Below, piece by piece: positions 4,528 through 15,202 of a stretch of DNA of 16,436 nucleotides. The stretch is from Myxococcota bacterium (lineage in GTDB: Bacteria > Myxococcota_C > UBA6777). Position numbers and translations under genes: made by a program. The stretch is from positions 1 through 16,436 of the forward strand of contig JAKLKB010000145.1 in NCBI GenBank assembly GCA_023150835.1, written 5' to 3'. A model generated the notes under the pieces. It saw only the letters and a program-made list of their open reading frames with translations, did no database searches and was not told where the DNA came from. Position 1 is the stretch's first letter. Every line of letters starts with the position of its first letter.

Positions 4528-7500
4528 ATGCGATTCTATCGGTGTTTGGTGTGGCTTGTGGTACTTTGCGCGGGGCTGGTTTGCCCCTTGGCTACGGCAA
4601 CCGCGCAGCTTTATCAGGGCGACGGCAAAGATTATGTCCTATATGTGAATCCAACCTTGTGGGTGTGGGCCAAGGAAAACAACACGACAGTGACGGTTCG
4701 TCGGTTGGATACAGGTGCGGTGTTGGGGACGCAAACCATCGCAGCAGCGGGGGAGATGGTGAAACGCGATTTTACGGTGAACCAGATCCGCGTACAAGCT
4801 GACAAGCCCGTCTTTGTGGCGACAGGGGTGGTGGGGACGGGAACCAACAATGATGCTTATGGAACGTATCTTTTGAGCGAAAATGGCTCACGCATCGGAC
4901 GAAGTTTCGAAGGGTACACGCGCTCCGAGGTGCTTGTTGCGTGTCAGAGAGACGCATCTTCGACAACGCCCCCAAGCGTCGAACTGATCGACGTGACCGA
5001 TCGCGGGACCGCAAATGACGACAGCGTGACCTTGGGGCTTGCGCAAGCGACCTTTAGCAACACCGACGTGATCTACTGGTATCGCAACAACTTCGACGAC
5101 GACCAGATCCGTGTTCGTGCGAACCTTGCTTGCGCGGTGTTGGTGGGGCATCGTTTGCGGACCAATCCTGCGGACGATTTTTCGTACACGCCGCCTTCCT
5201 TTGATCCGCGCGATGAGGGGCGGAGTGTGGGCCATCGATTTTTCACTTACGCCCACGCACCCCTCACGATCATCGCAACCGAAGACAACACGACCATCAC
5301 CATCCGCGATCTTTCGGACGGAGACGACAACCGCACGTTGACCTTGAATCGCAAGCAGTTCTTTACAACCCGACCTGCCGCGCAAACCTACAACGGCTAC
5401 TCGCAGATATCTCCCAACCCCGCGAACTTGATCGATGATGACTTTCTCGATATCTCCGCCAACAAGCCGATCGTGGTGTACGTTGGCCCGACTACTTCCG
5501 ATGTCAACGAACACTCGATCTTTGCGGAAAGTGTGCCGCGTGGAAACGGAAAGCAGGAAGCCTATTGTTTTATCCAAAACGGCGGAGCGAGCGACTTCCA
5601 GATCTTCGCGCAAAACAGCCAAACCCAAGCGACTGTCACAACGATGGCGGGTGGAGCAAACGATACCTCGATCTTGCAACGGATCGGCCCGGGAGGGGCA
5701 GCATGGAGCGGCCCTGCCGCAGGGCCTGTGTGGTGGCAAAGTGCGGCGTATCGGTTTGAATTGGTCCATATCGAAGCGGATGCGCCGTTTACCGCGTTGT
5801 GTGGCGACTTTGATCAGGCTTCTTGGCAATCGTTCTTGCCCTTTTACGCACCCAACCGCGCCCCACAGATCGCCGCCAACAGCGCTTTGACGCGCACCAT
5901 CGCCGAAGGGCAGAATCTCAACATCACCTTCACAGGCAGCGATCTCGATGGTGACACCAGCTTGACGTGGACGATCTCTCCGCTTCCTGCGGGGGCAACC
6001 ATCGCAGGAACGGGCCTGACGCGCACGTTTGATTGGACGCCGAACTTCACGCAGGCCGGAACCTACCAAGTGCAGCTCAGCCTGCGCGACAGCGGGGTTC
6101 CTTCGCGCACCACCACCATCACGCTGACGATCATCGTGACGGACGTGAACCGCGCCCCCAGCATCACCTCCACCCCACCCACGACCGCAACCGAAGACAG
6201 CCTCTACAGCTACAAACCGACTGCCACCGATCCCGATCCCAACACGACCTTCACATGGCGGTTTGCGAAAGATGCAAACGGTGCGGATATCGCTCCACAA
6301 GGCGCAACCATCAATCCCAATACAGGCGAGATATCGTGGACGCCCGGAGATGCCGATGCCAACAAGGAATTCGACTTTGCCATCGAAGTTTGCGACAACG
6401 CCACTCCACCCGCTTGCACCAAACAATCGTGGAAAACCAAAGTTACCAACGTCAACGATCCACCCTCGATCACTTCAACTCCCCCCAACAGCGGGCGCGA
6501 CGGTAGCCCTTATCGCTACAAACCAACCGTCACGGATCCTGATACGGGAAGCACATTCACATGGAGAAAAAAGAGCGGACCTGCGGGCGTGAGCGTCGAT
6601 CCAAATACGGGCGAAGTGGCATGGACCCCCGATGCTTCGGATGCACAAGCAGGCTCGCGAGAGATCGAGATCGAAGTCTGCGACAATGCCACGCCTCCCG
6701 CTTGTGTGCTCCAAAAATGGACGGTCAACGTGAGCCGCACCAATCAAGCACCCTCGATCACAAGCACCGCTCCCGACAAAGCTTTTGTCGGTCAAGACCT
6801 CGGGTATACGCCGACGGCAACGGATCCTGATCCCAATAGCGTCTTGACATGGCGGTTTGTGAAAGATGCAAGCGGCGCGAATATCGCTCCTCAGGGCGCA
6901 ACCATCGATCCCAACACAGGAAAGATCACATGGACCCCAAGCGCCAACGACGCAGGAAAAGATATCGATTTTGCCATCGAAGTTTGCGACAACGCCACTC
7001 CGCCGCTTTGTACCACGCAGCGTTTTCGCACGCGGGTTCACCGCCCTTGCCAAGTCGACGCGGATTGTCCGACTTCAGAGATCTGTTCCGCAAAGACCTG
7101 CCGTCCTGCGGGCTGTTCAAACCAAAGCATCTCCTGCGCAGCGGAGCAATTTTGCCGAGACGGCCAATGTCTCGAAGATATCTGCAAAAAAGGCACACTG
7201 ACCTGCACAGCGCCACAGTTTTGCCGACCGGGAGATCCGGCCTGTATCGGTTCGTGCGCAGGAGTTTCTTGTGCGAGCGATGAGCGATGTCGCGGGGGAG
7301 CCTGCGCAAAAGACCCATGCAACGGGATCTCCTGTCAAGGCGGGAAAGTCTGTGCCGAAGGCCAATGTGTGACGGAGCATTGCAACCAAGCCAACGCTTG
7401 CAAACACGGTCGTTTGTGTCGCTCGGATCTCCAGATCTGCCAAGAAGATCTCTGCAAAAGCATCACTTGTCCCCAAGGCCAATTGTGCAAAGACGGCCAG

Positions 7501-8397
7501 TGTGGCGTGGATATCCCTTGCGCGTATGACAGCGATTGTGGCGGAGAGGCCGTCTGTATCGCGAAACTTTGCAAACCCGCTGGCTGCTACAAAACAGGCT
7601 GCAAACAAGGAGAGCGCTGCAAAGAAGGGGTCTGTGTGCCCGATCCTTGCGCAGGGATCACCTGTCCAAACAACGGCTCGATCTGCCGTCCCTCCGATGG
7701 GGTGTGTGTTCGCGTATGCAGGGTGGTTTGTGCGCGTGGGGAAGTCTGTTTGGAGGGGCTGTGTGCGATCGATCCTTGTAGCGTTGTCACGTGCGCTGCG
7801 GGTTCACGTTGCGTTCTTGGAAAATGCCTGCTGGATGGGTGTTTCAGTTCGCCCAACGAAAAGTGCAAGGCCCAACGCGCCTGTTCTGTCGATGGTTGTG
7901 TCGATGATCTCTGCAAAGATTTGTCTTGTCCGATCGGACAGATCTGCATCCAAGGCCAATGCCAACCACCCAGCGCAAGCACCGAAGGCAACACCGAGAC
8001 AAGCACCGAGACAAGCAACGAGACAAGCAACGAGACAAGCAACGAGACAAGCAACGAAACAAGCAGCGAAGGCAGCAACGAAACAAGCAGCGAAGGTAGC
8101 ACCGAAACCAGCAGCGAATCTCCGACAGAAGGGGGGCAAGAAACATCCGCAGAGACCGCAAACGAGTCCACGACACAAGAAGAAGTCCAAGACAGCGTGA
8201 TCTCCGAACCGACGGTCGAGTCCCAAGAGACGAATGCCTCCGATAAAGCAGACACACAAGATCAAAGCAACACGGATAACGCAGGGGCGGTTGGCGGGGG
8301 CTGTTCTTGTCAACAGGCCGATCCTTGGTTGTCGTGGTCTTTCTTTTTCCTGATCGTCGTTTCGCTTGCTTTTCGGCGGAAACATCGTATAGAGTAG
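4528..8397 (+). CDS. Large modular cell-surface protein: IgGFc-binding-like head, Ig-like repeats, Cys-rich repeats, MYXO-CTERM tail
   Basis: 1289 residues in six parts. (1) Signal peptide ~1-26, with probable cleavage after TATA or TAQ. (2) Residues ~27-440, beta-rich, with repeated ENNTTVTVR / EDNTTITIR segments and blocks resembling the IgGFc-binding N-terminal domain family of deltaproteobacteria; this assignment is tentative. (3) Four Ig/cadherin-like modules, ~442-837, each opening with a [NA]xxPxI motif and carrying TDPDP/SDLDGD-type acidic calcium-site-like motifs. (4) A Cys-rich region, 841-1145, of repeated C-x4-C-x5-C-x4-C units. (5) A Thr/Ser/Asn/Glu stalk, ~1150-1250. (6) Tail GGGCSCQ, a hydrophobic helix (~1266-1282) and RRKHR, matching a MYXO-CTERM sorting signal. 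The last feature predicts processing and anchoring in the outer envelope. The role is likely adhesion or recognition; the ligand is unknown. It is the only clearly envelope-displayed protein here and lies just downstream of the pseudokinase. Confidence 0.93.
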   Translation: MRFYRCLVWLVVLCAGLVCPLATATAQLYQGDGKDYVLYVNPTLWVWAKENNTTVTVRRLDTGAVLGTQTIAAAGEMVKRDFTVNQIRVQADKPVFVATGVVGTGTNNDAYGTYLLSENGSRIGRSFEGYTRSEVLVACQRDASSTTPPSVELIDVTDRGTANDDSVTLGLAQATFSNTDVIYWYRNNFDDDQIRVRANLACAVLVGHRLRTNPADDFSYTPPSFDPRDEGRSVGHRFFTYAHAPLTIIATEDNTTITIRDLSDGDDNRTLTLNRKQFFTTRPAAQTYNGYSQISPNPANLIDDDFLDISANKPIVVYVGPTTSDVNEHSIFAESVPRGNGKQEAYCFIQNGGASDFQIFAQNSQTQATVTTMAGGANDTSILQRIGPGGAAWSGPAAGPVWWQSAAYRFELVHIEADAPFTALCGDFDQASWQSFLPFYAPNRAPQIAANSALTRTIAEGQNLNITFTGSDLDGDTSLTWTISPLPAGATIAGTGLTRTFDWTPNFTQAGTYQVQLSLRDSGVPSRTTTITLTIIVTDVNRAPSITSTPPTTATEDSLYSYKPTATDPDPNTTFTWRFAKDANGADIAPQGATINPNTGEISWTPGDADANKEFDFAIEVCDNATPPACTKQSWKTKVTNVNDPPSITSTPPNSGRDGSPYRYKPTVTDPDTGSTFTWRKKSGPAGVSVDPNTGEVAWTPDASDAQAGSREIEIEVCDNATPPACVLQKWTVNVSRTNQAPSITSTAPDKAFVGQDLGYTPTATDPDPNSVLTWRFVKDASGANIAPQGATIDPNTGKITWTPSANDAGKDIDFAIEVCDNATPPLCTTQRFRTRVHRPCQVDADCPTSEICSAKTCRPAGCSNQSISCAAEQFCRDGQCLEDICKKGTLTCTAPQFCRPGDPACIGSCAGVSCASDERCRGGACAKDPCNGISCQGGKVCAEGQCVTEHCNQANACKHGRLCRSDLQICQEDLCKSITCPQGQLCKDGQCGVDIPCAYDSDCGGEAVCIAKLCKPAGCYKTGCKQGERCKEGVCVPDPCAGITCPNNGSICRPSDGVCVRVCRVVCARGEVCLEGLCAIDPCSVVTCAAGSRCVLGKCLLDGCFSSPNEKCKAQRACSVDGCVDDLCKDLSCPIGQICIQGQCQPPSASTEGNTETSTETSNETSNETSNETSNETSSEGSNETSSEGSTETSSESPTEGGQETSAETANESTTQEEVQDSVISEPTVESQETNASDKADTQDQSNTDNAGAVGGGCSCQQADPWLSWSFFFLIVVSLAFRRKHRIE
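5851..7038 (+). repeat. Four Ig/cadherin-like modules in the surface protein
   Basis: Modules begin near residues 442, 541, 643 and 739, with APQI, APSITSTPP, PPSITSTPP and APSITSTAP. The last three share TDPDP/TDPDT, DPNTG or NPNTG, a WTP motif and a CDNATPPxC pair that may form a disulfide. Modules 2 and 4 are 24 of 30 identical over residues 577-606 and 775-804, while module 3 is shorter and more diverged. This suggests duplication within the gene. They resemble putative Ig (He_PIG) or cadherin-like repeats. Confidence 0.75.
7048..7962 (+). repeat. Cysteine-rich repeat region of the surface protein
   Basis: About eleven short modules of the form C-x4-C-x5-C-x4-C recur, for example CNGISCQGGKVCAEGQC and CKSITCPQGQLCKDGQC. 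Many are joined by DPC or DLC. The dense, regular cysteines imply a disulfide-stabilised extracellular rod. This type of Cys-rich repeat is common in secreted proteins of Myxococcota and relatives. No metal-binding or enzymatic motif is evident. Confidence 0.75.
7987..8118 (+). repeat. 12-bp in-frame tandem repeat encoding Thr-Ser-Asn-Glu stalk
   Basis: Eleven 12-bp units, the best conserved being ACAAGCAACGAG (Thr-Ser-Asn-Glu) at 8011-8046; the flanking units drift to TSSE, GSNE and GSTE. All units keep the reading frame, so gain or loss of copies would change only the length of the stalk between the Cys-rich region and the membrane anchor. There are no spacers, so it is not a CRISPR array. 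Confidence 0.9.
8296..8394 (+). other. MYXO-CTERM-like sorting signal
   Basis: Residues 1257-1289 read GGGCSCQQADPW, then a hydrophobic stretch of about 17 residues, then RRKHRIE. MYXO-CTERM tails have a Gly-Cys motif, a membrane helix and an Arg-rich end. In Myxococcus these are processed by a rhombosortase-like or myxosortase enzyme and the protein is anchored at the cell surface. The match is by motif reading only. Confidence 0.75.
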
Positions 8398-8491: not shown

Positions 8492-10942
<2,451 letters not shown>

Positions 10943-11077
10943 ACGTTTCTTTCAAGCGCTTCTCCTACATACCAACAAAACAAATCCACACGGATCGTCC
11001 GAATCATTACAAAACTGCAGCGATCTGGTTTTGCTGACGAACGGACGCAACGCTTTAGCTTTGCCGACGGAGAGAGT
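10943..11077 (+). other. 135-bp gap between TPR and J-like genes; no confident gene
   Basis: The stop of the TPR gene overlaps an ATG (ATGA at 10939-10942) that opens a 32-codon frame ending at 11037. I cannot support it as a gene, as no homology is evident. The frame of the downstream J-like gene is also open back to 10943 but has no ATG, GTG or TTG before 11078. A small hairpin CGGA/TCCG lies at about 10991-11001. GGAG at 11069-11072, 5 nt before ATG 11078, is the probable RBS of the J-like gene. Confidence 0.4.
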
Positions 11078-11389
11078 ATGTACCCCTTTTTTCTGTTTCA
11101 GATACCGCCGAACGCCACAGACGAAGAAGTGGAAGCTCGTTATCACGCGTTGATCACGCGCTATTCACCCGAAGCAGCACCCGAACAATTTGCGCAGATC
11201 CGCAAAGCCTACGAGGCGCTCCGAACCAAAGAAAAGCGAGCAGCGGTGTTGGTGTCGTACCACGATCAGACAGGACAGGCTTTGTTAAACGAATATCCTT
11301 TTTGGCTGCAAGAACAAGCGCGCAAACGACTTTCTTTTGAGCAGTTGCGCGAGCGGCTTGTCGAAGCGAACCTTCCGAAGATTTCTTAA
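11078..11389 (+). CDS. Small J-domain-like protein lacking the HPD motif
   Basis: 103 residues. FLFQIPPNATDEEVEARYHA (5-24) matches helix I and the start of helix II of DnaJ-type J domains (typically LGVPPxAxxEEIKxAYRxL). FAQIRKAYEAL (38-48) matches helix III (FxxIxxAYExL). The helix II-III loop, where J-proteins carry His-Pro-Asp needed to stimulate Hsp70 ATPase, reads Ser30-Pro31-Glu32 instead. The protein has no G/F region, zinc centre or substrate domain. Only a short helical C-terminus follows. The ATG at 11078 has GGAG 5 nt upstream. It sits 54 bp before the grpE-like gene and in the same strand series as the Hsp70, so it is probably a partner that binds the Hsp70 without normal stimulation, or a regulator. 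Similar HPD-less small J-like proteins seem to me to recur in deltaproteobacteria, but I cannot check. Confidence 0.8.
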   Translation: MYPFFLFQIPPNATDEEVEARYHALITRYSPEAAPEQFAQIRKAYEALRTKEKRAAVLVSYHDQTGQALLNEYPFWLQEQARKRLSFEQLRERLVEANLPKIS

Positions 11390-11443
11390 CGGCAGCTTTT
11401 TTCTTTTCTTGGGTACGCAGCCTCGTATGGCGGAGCATGGTGT

Positions 11444-12091
11444 ATGGACCACATCCACGAGATGATCCAGCAATGGATCGCAGAAGAAACCAAGCATCTC
11501 TCGGAGCTTGAACATCTCGTCGTTTCGGAAGTGCCAGAAGTCGATCTGCGCACGTTGTTGTCGGAGATGGTGTCTTTTCGTGCGGCTTGGCGCACAGAAG
11601 CTGAAGCAACAAAAGAACTGCGCGAGCAAACGAAAGCAGCGCTGCATCTCGCACAACAGAGTTTTGAGGACGCGCAGATACGCGCTCAGCGCGCTGAGCA
11701 AAAGCTGGCCGCTTTGGAGCAAGCCAACGAACGCAAACAAGCGCAGCCTTGGGTGGAGGCTTTGGAGCGGCTTGAGCGATCCATTGAGCAGGCACGCAAG
11801 ATAGCCCAACCTCGGGGGTGGTGGAAGCATCGTATCGATCCAAATGCCCAAGCTATGTTGGAGGGCTTGTTGCTGACGCAAACGCAATGGCTCCAACAAC
11901 TCCAAGCCTTGCACATCGAGCCGATCCGTGCGCTTTATCAGCCTTTTGATGCCGAACGGATGGAATGTGTAGGGATCACAGAACAGTATCAGTATGCAAA
12001 TGGCCTTGTCACCGAAGAGATCACTCGTGGCTATACACACCGACAAGGGCTGTGGCGCACATCGAAAGTGATCGTAAACCGCCTTCCATAG
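11444..12091 (+). CDS. grpE: GrpE-like nucleotide exchange factor for the neighbouring Hsp70
   Basis: 215 residues. The N-terminal half (about 1-100) is a long charged helix with coiled-coil character, as in the GrpE dimer stalk. The middle, VEALERLERSIEQA (104-117) and MLEGLLLTQTQWLQQLQALHIEPI (in parts 138-161), corresponds to the GrpE core helices. The C-terminus, PFDAERMECVGITE (167-180) and EITRGYTHRQGLWRTSKVIV (192-211), matches the beta domain (PNxHEAV...; GY...GRVLRPAxVxV). Sequence is far from housekeeping GrpE, and the typical DPxxHEA residues are replaced by DAERMEC. GrpE releases ADP from Hsp70. A GGAG lies 8 nt before the ATG. It ends 11 bp before the Hsp70 gene, so coupling is likely. 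Confidence 0.8.
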   Translation: MDHIHEMIQQWIAEETKHLSELEHLVVSEVPEVDLRTLLSEMVSFRAAWRTEAEATKELREQTKAALHLAQQSFEDAQIRAQRAEQKLAALEQANERKQAQPWVEALERLERSIEQARKIAQPRGWWKHRIDPNAQAMLEGLLLTQTQWLQQLQALHIEPIRALYQPFDAERMECVGITEQYQYANGLVTEEITRGYTHRQGLWRTSKVIVNRLP

Positions 12092-12102
12092 GGGAGTATT
12101 GA

Positions 12103-13908
12103 ATGCCTTCTTCTTTGATTCTTGGGATCGATCTGGGCACGACGAATTCAGCGGCTGCGGTGTTTGAGGGCGGCCAACCCCGTGCTGTCGAAGTGGACGG
12201 CCAAGTGCTTTTGCCTTCGTGTGTGGGGGTGGACGCAGAAGGTCGCTTGATCGTCGGACAGGCTGCGCGGAACCAAATCGTGCTTTACCCCGAGCGCACT
12301 GTGAAGTCTTTCAAGCGCATGATGGGCAAGGATACACACGTCACTCTCGGCGAACAGAAGTTTACGCCGACCGAGCTATCGGCTGTGGTCTTGCGCCGAT
12401 TGAAGCAAGCCGCAGAAGCCCAATTTCAGCAGCCGATCCATGAGGCTGTGATCACAGTCCCAGCGTATTTTTCTGATGCGCAACGCACCGCAACCAAAGA
12501 AGCCGGCGAGATCGCGGGCTTTGAGGTGCGCCGTATCCTCAACGAACCCACCGCAGCCGCGCTGTGTTATCTTTCCCAAGACGAGCGCGATCGCACGTTT
12601 CTTGTGTACGATCTGGGGGGCGGAACCTTCGATGTATCGATCTTGCGCTCCAAAGGAAAGGTCACTGAAGTACTCGCTTCTCACGGGGATACTGCACTTG
12701 GGGGAGATGACTTCGATCGTTTGTTGTATGATTTTTTGGTGGAGCGCTTGAAAGAACAACATCCGAATCTGGCTTTTCCTCTGCCTTTGCGTGCGCAGCA
12801 TCGCTTGCTTCGTGCCGCAGAGTCCGCCAAGATCGAGCTTTCTACCGAGTCTTACGCCCAAGTTATTGAGGAACACTTGGCCGAGATCGATGGCGTTCCG
12901 ATCCATTTTCGTTGCGAAGTCAAGCGCCGCAGCTACGAAGAATTGATCGAGCCTTGGCTACAGCGCACGCGGGATTCTGTTCAAAAGGCCCTCAATGAAG
13001 CGAAGTTATTGGCCCGTCAACTAGATGAAGTCATTCTGGTGGGGGGGGCTTCTTACACGCCGGCGGTTCGTGAGCTGCTTCGGGGGTTATTGGGTGTCGA
13101 GCCGCGTATGGATATCAACCCCGAGTATGCTGTCCTCTATGGTGCGGCGATCCAAGCAGCCCGTTTGGCGGGGCAACAAGTGGATCGTATCCTCGTTGAT
13201 GTGACTCCTTTTTCTTTTGGGACGTCCTGTCTAGGCTTCTTGCATGGGGTTCCATCTGCCGACTGCTACGAGATCGTGATCCACCGCAACACTCCGCTCC
13301 CAACGCGCCAAACAGAGGTCTTTTGTACTTCCGTCGATTATCAAGCAGCCGTCGACGTCAAGGTGTTCCAAGGAGAAGATCCAGACGCACGGCGAAATCT
13401 GTTTTTGGGAGAATTTTGGGTCGAAGGTTTGGACAAGAAAGCCGATGCTGGCAGCGAGATCCTGTTCGATATGCGCCTCGATCTCAACGGGATGTTGGAT
13501 GTCCAAGTGACAGAGAAGCACACGGGCCTTCGCAAAGGCATCACGATCAAAGATGCTTTTCGCAAGCTTTCCCCCGAAGAGCGCGAACAGGCGCAGCAGC
13601 GGATTCGTTCGTTGTGGGATGATCAAAGCGAAACCGAATATTCGCTGCAAGATGCTCCTGCGCACGGCGAATCGTTTGATTTGCCTCCTGCCCCCGAAGG
13701 TCTTGCAAAAGAGCAGCAACAAGCGTGGTTGCGCCTTTGCGAGTTGCTGAAAAAAGCGCAGCAGAAATCGTTTTCGCTCGAACAAGCCGATCGAGAGGAG
13801 CTTTTGGAGATCATCCATCGTGGGCGTGGGCATCTTGAGCGTACAGATCTCTCCAAGATCGCCGAATGTGCAGACGAATTGAACGATGTACTTTTCTATC
13901 TCGATTGA
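12103..13908 (+). CDS. dnaK: Hsp70 (DnaK family) chaperone, probably an accessory paralog
   Basis: 601 residues; E. coli DnaK has 638. The ATPase domain is intact: GIDLGTTNS (8-16), the catalytic Lys71 in SFKRMMG, VITVPAYFSDAQR (116-128), NEPTAAAL (147-154), DLGGGTFDVSIL (170-181), GDTALGGDDFD with Thr197 (195-205) and ILVGGASYTP (311-320). The linker region reads DVTPFSFG (366-373) instead of DVTPLSLG. The substrate domain starts near 385 with HRNTPLPTRQTEVF (394-407) and VDVKVFQGE (417-425). The lid is short and atypical, and the acidic C-terminal tail is missing. GGGGAG lies 6 nt before the ATG. It is preceded by GrpE-like and J-like genes and followed by a zinc-ribbon protein, unlike the usual grpE-dnaK-dnaJ order. 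It folds or remodels proteins using ATP; its dedicated clients are unknown. Confidence 0.93.
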   Translation: MPSSLILGIDLGTTNSAAAVFEGGQPRAVEVDGQVLLPSCVGVDAEGRLIVGQAARNQIVLYPERTVKSFKRMMGKDTHVTLGEQKFTPTELSAVVLRRLKQAAEAQFQQPIHEAVITVPAYFSDAQRTATKEAGEIAGFEVRRILNEPTAAALCYLSQDERDRTFLVYDLGGGTFDVSILRSKGKVTEVLASHGDTALGGDDFDRLLYDFLVERLKEQHPNLAFPLPLRAQHRLLRAAESAKIELSTESYAQVIEEHLAEIDGVPIHFRCEVKRRSYEELIEPWLQRTRDSVQKALNEAKLLARQLDEVILVGGASYTPAVRELLRGLLGVEPRMDINPEYAVLYGAAIQAARLAGQQVDRILVDVTPFSFGTSCLGFLHGVPSADCYEIVIHRNTPLPTRQTEVFCTSVDYQAAVDVKVFQGEDPDARRNLFLGEFWVEGLDKKADAGSEILFDMRLDLNGMLDVQVTEKHTGLRKGITIKDAFRKLSPEEREQAQQRIRSLWDDQSETEYSLQDAPAHGESFDLPPAPEGLAKEQQQAWLRLCELLKKAQQKSFSLEQADREELLEIIHRGRGHLERTDLSKIAECADELNDVLFYLD

Positions 13909-13929
13909 TCGAGCGAGCGAGAGGATCGG

Positions 13930-14331
13930 ATGCGCGAGGAACTTCTTCTTTTGAAATGTCCTGCTTGCCATACACGTTTCCAAGGCGACGAATCACCTGA
14001 CGATCCGTGTCGTCGTTGTCGCACAGATCTGCGCTCTCTGCGGCTTTGCTACCAACACGCACGCCTCTTGTGTCAAAAAGTGCGCATCGCGCTGCTCAAG
14101 CAACAAGCCACACAGGCCCTTTGGCTGGCAAAGCGTGCGCGAGCACTTGTCGAACACCCGATCACAACGAAGCTTTTTGCTTGTGCATTTTACGCATACC
14201 GAGCACAACAAAAAACAGTAGGGACTTTTCCCACACAAGGGGAAGGCTCGGAAGGGGAAGGCTCGGAAGGGGAAGGCTCGGAAGGGGAAGGCTCGGAAGG
14301 GAAAATCTCAGATGTGGAGTACAAGCGTTGA
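13930..14331 (+). CDS. Zinc-ribbon protein with helical segment and GEGSE repeat tail
   Basis: 133 residues. Two CxxC pairs (Cys10/Cys13 and Cys27/Cys30, 13 residues between pairs) form a probable zinc ribbon (CPAC...CRRC). Residues ~35-95 are helical and TPR-like, for example LLKQQATQALWLAKRARALV. The tail has four GEGSE repeats (104-123) and a charged end. The start is supported by GAGAGG 5 nt upstream of the ATG. It begins 21 bp after the Hsp70 stop and is likely in the same operon, so it may be a client-binding or metal-dependent adaptor; this is inference only. Its 3' end overlaps the next gene by 20 bp. Confidence 0.8.
   Translation: MREELLLLKCPACHTRFQGDESPDDPCRRCRTDLRSLRLCYQHARLLCQKVRIALLKQQATQALWLAKRARALVEHPITTKLFACAFYAYRAQQKTVGTFPTQGEGSEGEGSEGEGSEGEGSEGKISDVEYKR
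14239..14298 (+). repeat. 15-bp in-frame tandem repeat, four perfect copies (GEGSE)
   Basis: GGGGAAGGCTCGGAA is repeated four times without a mismatch and a partial copy (GGGA) follows. Each unit encodes Gly-Glu-Gly-Ser-Glu in the zinc-ribbon gene. Perfect identity suggests recent expansion. It lies 14 bp upstream of the next gene's ATG at 14312, and its trailing GGAAGGGA may serve as that gene's RBS. Confidence 0.95.
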
Positions 14332-15202
14332 TCCTCTTGGATGGACGGGGTTTTGGGGTCGTGCTGCTGTGTTGGTGCAGGTGCATCACCAAGATCGTTT
14401 AGGTTGTCGATATAGGTTTTGGGGGCCTCTTGGTGTGTTGGCGCGGGTGAGAGCAGGCGCGTGGGTGGTGGGCTGGCTGCTTTGTTTTTGGGTGCCTTGT
14501 ACTGCCCAAGCCAGCGGGGGGTACAAAGCCTTTATGGCGGGTCGCAAGGCGTTGGCTGAGGGGGATGCGGATCTTGCGCTAAAGCATCTTCGCAACGCTC
14601 GCAAAACCTTGTCCCATTGGGGCCTTGTGCATCTTGAGATCGCCGTTGCGTATCGACAGCTTGGGGAGTTTGGGCAAGAAGCGCGTGTTGCGGTCCAAGA
14701 AGCGGTGCGTTTGCTTCCGCAAAATCCGCGTGCGCATCTGTTCGCTGGATTTTTTTGGGAAGGCGCGGGCGAACCCAAGCAAGCTCACCATCACTTCTTG
14801 CAAGCGGTGGCGTTGGGGCATCCGTCTCAGGACGCTTGTTTACACGCTGCGCGTCTTGCGCTCCGTTTTCAGCGCCATCAAGATGTGCTGCCTTGTTTGC
14901 AGATCTTGCGACGGCAAACCAAGTACGAACGCGCTGCTCATCTGTTGCTTGCTCAAAACCTCCAATCCATCGGTCGTATCCAAGAATCTGCATACCATTG
15001 GCGTTGGCTTTCTGCCCGTAGCTACGCGCTGTTTGAGCTTCAACTTTGCCTTTCCTTTTTTGTTCGCTATGTCGACCAACAATCCCCCAAAGACAAGCGG
15101 ATCTGGCGCGCAGATATCCAACAAATCGAACGCAAACTACGGAGCCTTGCACCCCATTCGCCCAAGCGCGATCTGCGTCCGTTGTTGCCTAGCAAACGCT
15201 AA
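14312..15202 (+). CDS. TPR-like protein with probable export signal
   Basis: 296 residues from ATG 14312, which overlaps the zinc-ribbon gene by 20 bp and has AAGGG about 10 nt upstream. A hydrophobic stretch, WVVGWLLCFWVP, ends in CTAQASGG (about 51-69 of this frame), which looks like a signal peptide. Starts at GTG 14435 or GTG 14447 would give a compact signal peptide of about 22-26 residues, and those are good alternatives. The body has TPR-like helices: AGRKALAEGDADLALKHLRN (75-94), LGEFGQEARVAVQEAVRLLP, EPKQAHHHFLQAVALG, and later pairs to about residue 245. It is likely exported to the periplasm or envelope, where TPR proteins serve as scaffolds. Its link to the chaperone cluster is only positional. 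No catalytic motif is seen. Confidence 0.8.
   Translation: MWSTSVDPLGWTGFWGRAAVLVQVHHQDRLGCRYRFWGPLGVLARVRAGAWVVGWLLCFWVPCTAQASGGYKAFMAGRKALAEGDADLALKHLRNARKTLSHWGLVHLEIAVAYRQLGEFGQEARVAVQEAVRLLPQNPRAHLFAGFFWEGAGEPKQAHHHFLQAVALGHPSQDACLHAARLALRFQRHQDVLPCLQILRRQTKYERAAHLLLAQNLQSIGRIQESAYHWRWLSARSYALFELQLCLSFFVRYVDQQSPKDKRIWRADIQQIERKLRSLAPHSPKRDLRPLLPSKR

Follow-up and report, generated by a model that had tools for sequence, protein, structure and literature searches.

The window, as we call the whole stretch of DNA analysed here, comprises 16,436 nucleotides of contig JAKLKB010000145.1 (assembly GCA_023150835.1) from a Myxococcota bacterium of the UBA6777 lineage. It carries a single forward-strand run of genes for a tetratricopeptide repeat (TPR) protein, a J-like protein, a GrpE, an Hsp70 and a small zinc-ribbon protein (Table 1). 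In this order the genes are separated by 135, 54, 11 and 21 bp, and all their frames are open. An earlier description made from the letters alone (the sequence-only reading) had listed the last four as tightly spaced genes on one strand, and the Pfam matches and the three short gaps confirm this. It had placed the start of the J gene at 10,943, which is merely the first base past the TPR stop codon; translation starts at the ATG at 11,078. The upstream TPR gene, the most telling partner, had been left outside the set. Scans of the set for promoters and terminators gave nothing exceeding shuffled sequences. The set is a conserved accessory machine, a variant of the HscC-DjlC system, and it is well supported that the genes form a functional unit.

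Table 1. Positions of the genes and motifs of the Hsp70 gene set in the window.
Feature	Position	Strand	Remarks
TPR / alpha-solenoid protein	8492..10942	+	816 aa from the likely start GTG 8492; longest open reading frame from TTG 8405
J-like protein, stand-alone J-domain without HPD	11078..11389	+	103 aa; PF00226 E=1.8e-8
Ser-Pro-Glu in place of His-Pro-Asp	11165..11173	+	read in sequence
GrpE-like nucleotide exchange factor	11444..12091	+	215 aa; PF01025 E=5.7e-15
Hsp70, HscC-containing branch	12103..13908	+	601 aa; PF00012 E=5.6e-129
Arg144 of Hsp70, equivalent to DnaK Arg167	12532..12534	+	alignment
Interdomain linker R-I-L-V-D (DnaK V-L-L-L-D 389-393)	13186..13200	+	alignment
Loop L1,2 region of the substrate-binding domain (SBD-beta)	13222..13284	+	21 residues; DnaK 13, HscC 17
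Small CxxC..CxxC zinc-ribbon protein	13930..14331	+	133 aa, 15-bp repeat tail

The genome to which the window belongs (7.56 Mb, 93% complete) encodes six full Hsp70s, four GrpEs and eleven J matches, and eight of its J-domains carry HPD. Contig C134 carries a canonical grpE-dnaK-dnaJ locus separate from the window set, which is therefore accessory. Thus, the search for a second dnaK-grpE-dnaJ proposed in the sequence-only reading excluded that this Hsp70 is the sole DnaK of the genome, and the idea of a specialised second set is supported.

The J-like protein, GrpE and Hsp70 of the set

The J-like protein has a true J-domain by profile (PF00226, 34.8 bits at a cut-off of 27.8). Its structural model has a predicted local distance difference test score (pLDDT) of about 90 or more across the J-domain and fits the J-domain of DnaK-bound DnaJ (5nro_B) with a root-mean-square deviation of 1.3 Å, and the modelled fold is intact. 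At the HPD position the protein reads YSPE instead of YHPD, which confirms that the motif is missing. In the genome of another genus of the same family (G002), the J-protein reads YPPD. Inspection of the 103-residue sequence revealed no hydrophobic segment, and a hydropathy scan of long J relatives found none in 61 of 65. Another J-domain of the same genome (L023, G000:C204:36394-36597), which lies in a 660-aa frame and has a long loop, carries YAPE in place of HPD.

To find further members, we used a degenerate DNA pattern of the J motif in which the residue ahead of Pro-Glu was left free. In the named genomes it matched at least 119 stretches, and we call their products xPE-J. Among the matches listed, the residue before Pro-Glu is Pro in 61, Ser in 39, and Thr, Ala, Asn, Arg or Lys in the others; His does not occur. 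By DnaJ numbering, among the same matches Tyr25 is kept in 99% although it is free in the pattern, Lys26 is lost and His33 is found in 0%. Pro34, Glu35 and Phe47 are also kept, but the pattern fixes all three, as well as some other positions, so their conservation in this sample is not independent evidence. The trend in the contact residues is the same in the J-proteins of the window and of G002 and in the members found by profile. The pattern also demands an acidic residue two positions before the Phe of helix III. Escherichia coli DjlC lacks this residue; hence, DjlC-like sequences with HPE were not sampled, and the absence of His describes this subfamily only. DjlC matches the xPE-J profile and has the same short loop, and DjlB and DjlC (HPE, short loop) are, judged by sequence, the nearest characterised relatives of the window protein. 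The sequence-only reading had treated the J-protein as reduced. The loss of HPD stands; a mere loss of parts does not, since the protein belongs to a coherent family with a short loop and no His. The loss of His looks like a maintained design rather than decay, because gene sets of this kind are found in at least nine named phyla of bacteria.

The Hsp70, for which an atypical C-terminus had been noted, is not a drifted DnaK. In a mixture-model tree, a branch with support of 100/99.9 separates the Hsp70s of such gene sets (cassettes) and E. coli HscC from DnaK, HscA and the other tested Hsp70s of the same genome. The tree, which the sequence-only reading had proposed as a check, thus places the window Hsp70 outside housekeeping DnaK. 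HscC is a long branch in this tree; a topology in which the cassette Hsp70s stand without HscC was rejected by the approximately unbiased test (p=0.0009). The closest named relatives of the window Hsp70 are those of Planctomycetota cassettes. It is 38% identical to E. coli DnaK and falls below both NCBIfam DnaK cut-offs (473.7 vs 648 bits for the PRK00290 model and 467.7 vs 822.55 bits for the other). It does end at the lid without an acidic tail, but an insertion of 8 residues in SBD-beta tells more. An insertion of 4-8 residues in loop L1,2 is the hallmark of HscC (PMC8215388). It amounts to eight residues in the window protein and four in HscC, occurs in 78 of 80 cassette Hsp70s (two could not be read), and is absent from HscA and all 19 DnaKs. 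The tree and the loop insertion together indicate that the Hsp70 belongs with E. coli HscC.

The catalytic residues of the window Hsp70 are conserved. The equivalent of Arg167 is present in 100% of the cassette Hsp70s and that of Glu217 in 95%. At linker position 392, Leu is found in 19 of 19 DnaKs and Thr, Val or Ile in 80 of 80 cassette Hsp70s; the choice of residue at position 391 is relaxed in the latter. The region of the GrpE-docking loop has 33 residues in the window Hsp70, as in DnaK, against 25 in HscC and 23 in HscA, and it keeps the DnaK length in 75 of 80 cassette Hsp70s. The loop insertion, the placement on the HscC side and the GrpE loop of DnaK length together suggest a set that is HscC-like yet competent for GrpE. 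Two other characters were set aside. The window Hsp70 lacks segment 76-101 of the nucleotide-binding domain, as HscC does, but many non-proteobacterial DnaKs lack it too (PMC8215388), so this absence is weak evidence for kinship and was downgraded as a shared novelty. A D481N change that might weaken the Arg167 lock was dropped, since Asn is normal in 18 of 19 DnaKs.

The GrpE scores 55.8 bits with PF01025 at a cut-off of 25.8 and covers positions 19-164 of the 165 in the profile. It is divergent, as had been noted, yet nearly full length. In the GrpE tree it pairs with the GrpE of G002 (SH-aLRT 99). The alignment is too short to resolve this tree, whose housekeeping GrpE is represented by a wrong fragment of 28 aa, and we used this pairing alone; the grouping with GrpEs of Planctomycetota cassettes was weak and was not used.

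Distribution of the set and its TPR partner

The comparison within the phylum covered five genomes. G002 has the identical order of TPR, J, GrpE, Hsp70 and zinc-ribbon genes, and on the TPR side it is flanked by ribosomal-protein genes, unlike the window. When 386 genomes were searched with a J profile of two rows, more cassettes emerged. They have one of two layouts: TPR, J, GrpE and Hsp70 (G140 and G205), or a J-TPR fusion followed by GrpE and Hsp70 and, in several, by a zinc-ribbon-TPR protein (G132, G269, G284, G147, G303, G016 and G164). A strict J pattern matched 5 of the 386 genomes, so the set is scattered and not universal. A scan of the named genomes with the window Hsp70 as a single protein found nothing. 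Among the matches listed for the degenerate J pattern, the stored stretch contains an Hsp70 in 95 of 119, a GrpE in 82 and both in 75; where 2.5 kb was available on both sides, an Hsp70 lies beside xPE-J in 40 of 43 loci. The xPE-J loci with an Hsp70 belong to at least nine named phyla (Bacillota, Chloroflexota, Planctomycetota, Cyanobacteriota, Myxococcota, Acidobacteriota, Pseudomonadota, Poribacteria and Omnitrophota). Thus, the gene order is conserved between unrelated flanks and recurs across phyla, which is beyond coincidence, and the set is not a speciality of Myxococcota.

The window TPR protein has a Lys-rich N-terminus, an Asp run (9692-9739) and a TPR_14 match (E=4e-6). Its AlphaFold model is all-helical with a mean pLDDT of 68, and its matches in the PDB are TPR superhelices. 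The TPR genes 5' of J in Planctomycetota and elsewhere are homologous to it (phmmer 2.7e-15 to L134; profile 1.9e-22), although repeats may inflate these scores. Chloroflexota, Planctomycetota, Poribacteria, Acidobacteriota and a magnetococcus have, immediately 5' of J and in the same orientation, a gene of about 450-840 codons, which in some cases is cut by a contig end. In several relatives it overlaps J by 4-35 bp, and those tested carry TPRs. In Bacillota, Cyanobacteriota and the group with J-TPR fusions, J is joined to TPR-like repeats. Since some lineages have the two parts as separate proteins and others have them fused, there is good evidence that they work as a pair. The upstream TPR protein is probably a partner of the set and is proposed as its client adaptor; recruitment by flanking TPR proteins had already been suggested for the set.

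Several other features of these proteins were observed. In the window, the TPR and J genes share one frame (10940-11077), in which they are split by a single TGA and 45 open codons; this may possibly reflect chance, a recent split or readthrough. A SEC-C zinc motif ends about half of the long Bacillota J-proteins. L106, L138 and 24 other Bacillota J-proteins end in this motif of the SecA type, which hints at targeting to the ribosome or to export. The Hsp70s of the fused group (L078, L079 and L080-L084) have His at the linker position of DnaK Asp393 and Asp at that of Asn170 in 9 of 9 cases. Both positions are otherwise invariant in our data set, and the J-domains of this group lack the His of HPD. 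A swap of the histidine between J and Hsp70 partners is possible in this group.

The zinc-ribbon protein has CxxC..CxxC motifs, but its matches to zinc-ribbon Pfam families are weak. It has an orthologue in G002 and is related to the N-terminus of the zinc-ribbon-TPR proteins that close J-TPR/GrpE/Hsp70 cassettes elsewhere. Four to five 15-bp tandem repeats (14237-14303) encode its E-G-E-G-S tail. Its gene overlaps by 20 bp the next gene (14312-15202), which encodes a TPR protein with a signal-like hydrophobic N-terminus. Jointly, the two resemble the zinc-ribbon-TPR-transmembrane-TPR protein that ends the cassettes with J-TPR fusions. Nearer the start of the window, positions 4528-8397 encode a surface protein of 1289 aa that is Ig-like and rich in Cys and has a MYXO-CTERM-like tail (GGGCSCQQ...RRKHR). 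The kinase-like protein encoded at 2600-4504 matches its Pfam profile in the C-lobe only (positions 154-257 of 263) and is possibly a pseudokinase with a transmembrane tail.

Possible action of a J-domain without histidine

HPD is regarded as an invariant trigger common to all Hsp70s; according to a review from 2026, it is enigmatic whether deviations from the motif are accidental or selected (PMC13254874). In the DnaK-DnaJ complex, His33 touches Leu391 of the linker and Asp35 pairs with Arg167; Lys26, Tyr25, Phe47, and Glu217 and Leu392 of DnaK also belong to the contact set (PMC13012618). DnaJ H33A in simulations binds without activation (PMC13012618).

We consider it somewhat probable that the window set is a complete accessory Hsp70 machine of the HscC/DjlC kind that depends on its GrpE and uses TPR proteins as client adaptors. 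The TPR protein and the stand-alone J-domain would form one targeting unit that chooses clients, a role that one J-TPR polypeptide would play elsewhere. The J-domain would dock on its own Hsp70 through the Glu35-Arg167 pair, Tyr25, Pro34 and Phe47; the contacts made by Lys26 and between His33 and Leu391 would be missing. Hydrolysis of ATP would then be triggered by a route independent of His33, which the altered linker and a TPR arm that keeps the J-domain close may make possible. The dedicated GrpE would exchange the nucleotide, the client would be released, and the small zinc-ribbon protein may be an accessory adaptor. A bolder proposal, which we put forward only tentatively, is that such sets represent a large and apparently undescribed class of bacterial Hsp70s (an earlier mention may exist), in which J and Hsp70 jointly gave up the His33-linker trigger, a His-free J-domain held by TPRs switches hydrolysis, and GrpE is dedicated. 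HscC-DjlC would be a derived branch that kept His and dropped GrpE.

Several observations weigh against this interpretation. In DnaJ, HPN or QPD abolish the stimulation of ATPase, and HPE alone is reported to be tolerated (PMC13254874). HscC already has Thr at position 392 though its J partners keep His, so the linker change is no clean partner of the loss of His. Helix II of the window J-protein (R22 to E, K26 to H, R27 to A) is farther from DnaJ than the family average. The group with J-TPR fusions has a similar J-domain, but its Hsp70s lie on the DnaK side of the tree and lack the L1,2 insertion. G001, of the same genus, G003 and G004 gave no clear J match (genomes 86-94% complete), so the set is patchy and dispensable.

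How the His-free J-domain would act is an inference, and a tether that does not stimulate the ATPase is a real rival. The J-like protein would then be a pseudo-J regulator that binds the Hsp70 or a true J-protein, while an HPD J-protein drives the cycle. Pam16 and similar proteins behave in this way (PMC13254874), the prediction for H33A agrees with it (PMC13012618), and the eight HPD J-domains of the genome would be available. Yet in the gene maps, whose profile labels covered xPE-J, GrpE and Hsp70 only, no second J gene regularly adjoins the loci. The J gene accompanies the Hsp70 from phylum to phylum. A mere decoy would need neither the Pro and acidic residue kept at the motif nor an invariant Arg167. 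We therefore regard the tether as possible but rather unlikely. It is improbable that the J-like protein makes no contact with the Hsp70 and serves as an assembly domain for the TPR protein only, with the Hsp70 working with GrpE and clients. The loss of His33 and Lys26 and, in the window, of further basic residues of helix II would fit this explanation; the retention of Tyr25 among the matches listed and the relationship to DjlC, which stimulates HscC (PMC8215388), speak against it.

Two explanations of the origin of the set are far weaker. Sequence divergence and motif loss might be expected of a decayed duplicate of the housekeeping dnaK operon. This is hardly credible given the open frames, the intact catalytic and Arg167 positions, the place of the Hsp70 on the HscC side rather than beside the genome's own DnaKs, and the same design in many phyla, which contradicts decay. 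It is also very improbable that the set is the SglK/GrpS-type second DnaK system of myxobacteria, known in M. xanthus as the bicistronic grpE-dnaK2 operon MXAN_6672-6671 (PMC11019930): SglK is of the PRK00290 type and groups with typical DnaKs (PMC8265645), whereas the window Hsp70 reaches neither DnaK cut-off and lies on the HscC side of a tree built without SglK. Thus, an accessory machine of the HscC/DjlC kind is the reading we prefer. A J family without His in any of the sampled sequences, locked across phyla to a dedicated Hsp70 and GrpE, speaks for selection; it also offers a clean test of how J-proteins without His33 might fire an Hsp70.

Comparison with known systems

E. coli HscC is known mainly through Cd2+ and UV phenotypes. 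By our data it is one member of a far broader group that commonly has GrpE and TPR adaptors. The window set shares with HscC-DjlB/DjlC the side of the Hsp70 tree, the L1,2 insertion, Thr or Val at linker position 392, a J partner that has Pro-Glu and an equally short loop, and a repeat protein nearby (YbeT with Sel1 repeats in the case of HscC). Unlike HscC, it comes with a GrpE of its own and retains the GrpE loop. Its J-protein is a soluble domain with SPE, in which Pro-Glu is kept and His lost, whereas DjlC has HPE and DjlB and DjlC are long and tail-anchored. A separate large TPR protein further distinguishes it from these systems.

With the canonical DnaK-DnaJ-GrpE system, the set shares the three core components by domain, a nearly complete GrpE domain, and the conserved catalytic and Arg167 residues of the Hsp70. 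It differs in the J-protein, which has no HPD, G/F, zinc or substrate domains, and in the Hsp70, which is 38% identical to E. coli DnaK and scores below the DnaK cut-offs. Like the type IV (pseudo) J-domain proteins, such as Pam16, the window protein has a recognisable J-domain with HPD replaced. However, Pam16 is partnered by the HPD J-protein Pam18, whereas the window protein adjoins a dedicated Hsp70, a GrpE and a TPR protein and keeps Pro and an acidic residue at the motif. In SglK (MxDnaK2)/GrpS of Myxococcus, a second Hsp70 likewise shares an operon with a grpE of its own, but SglK is DnaK-type, and no J gene is reported in its bicistronic operon.

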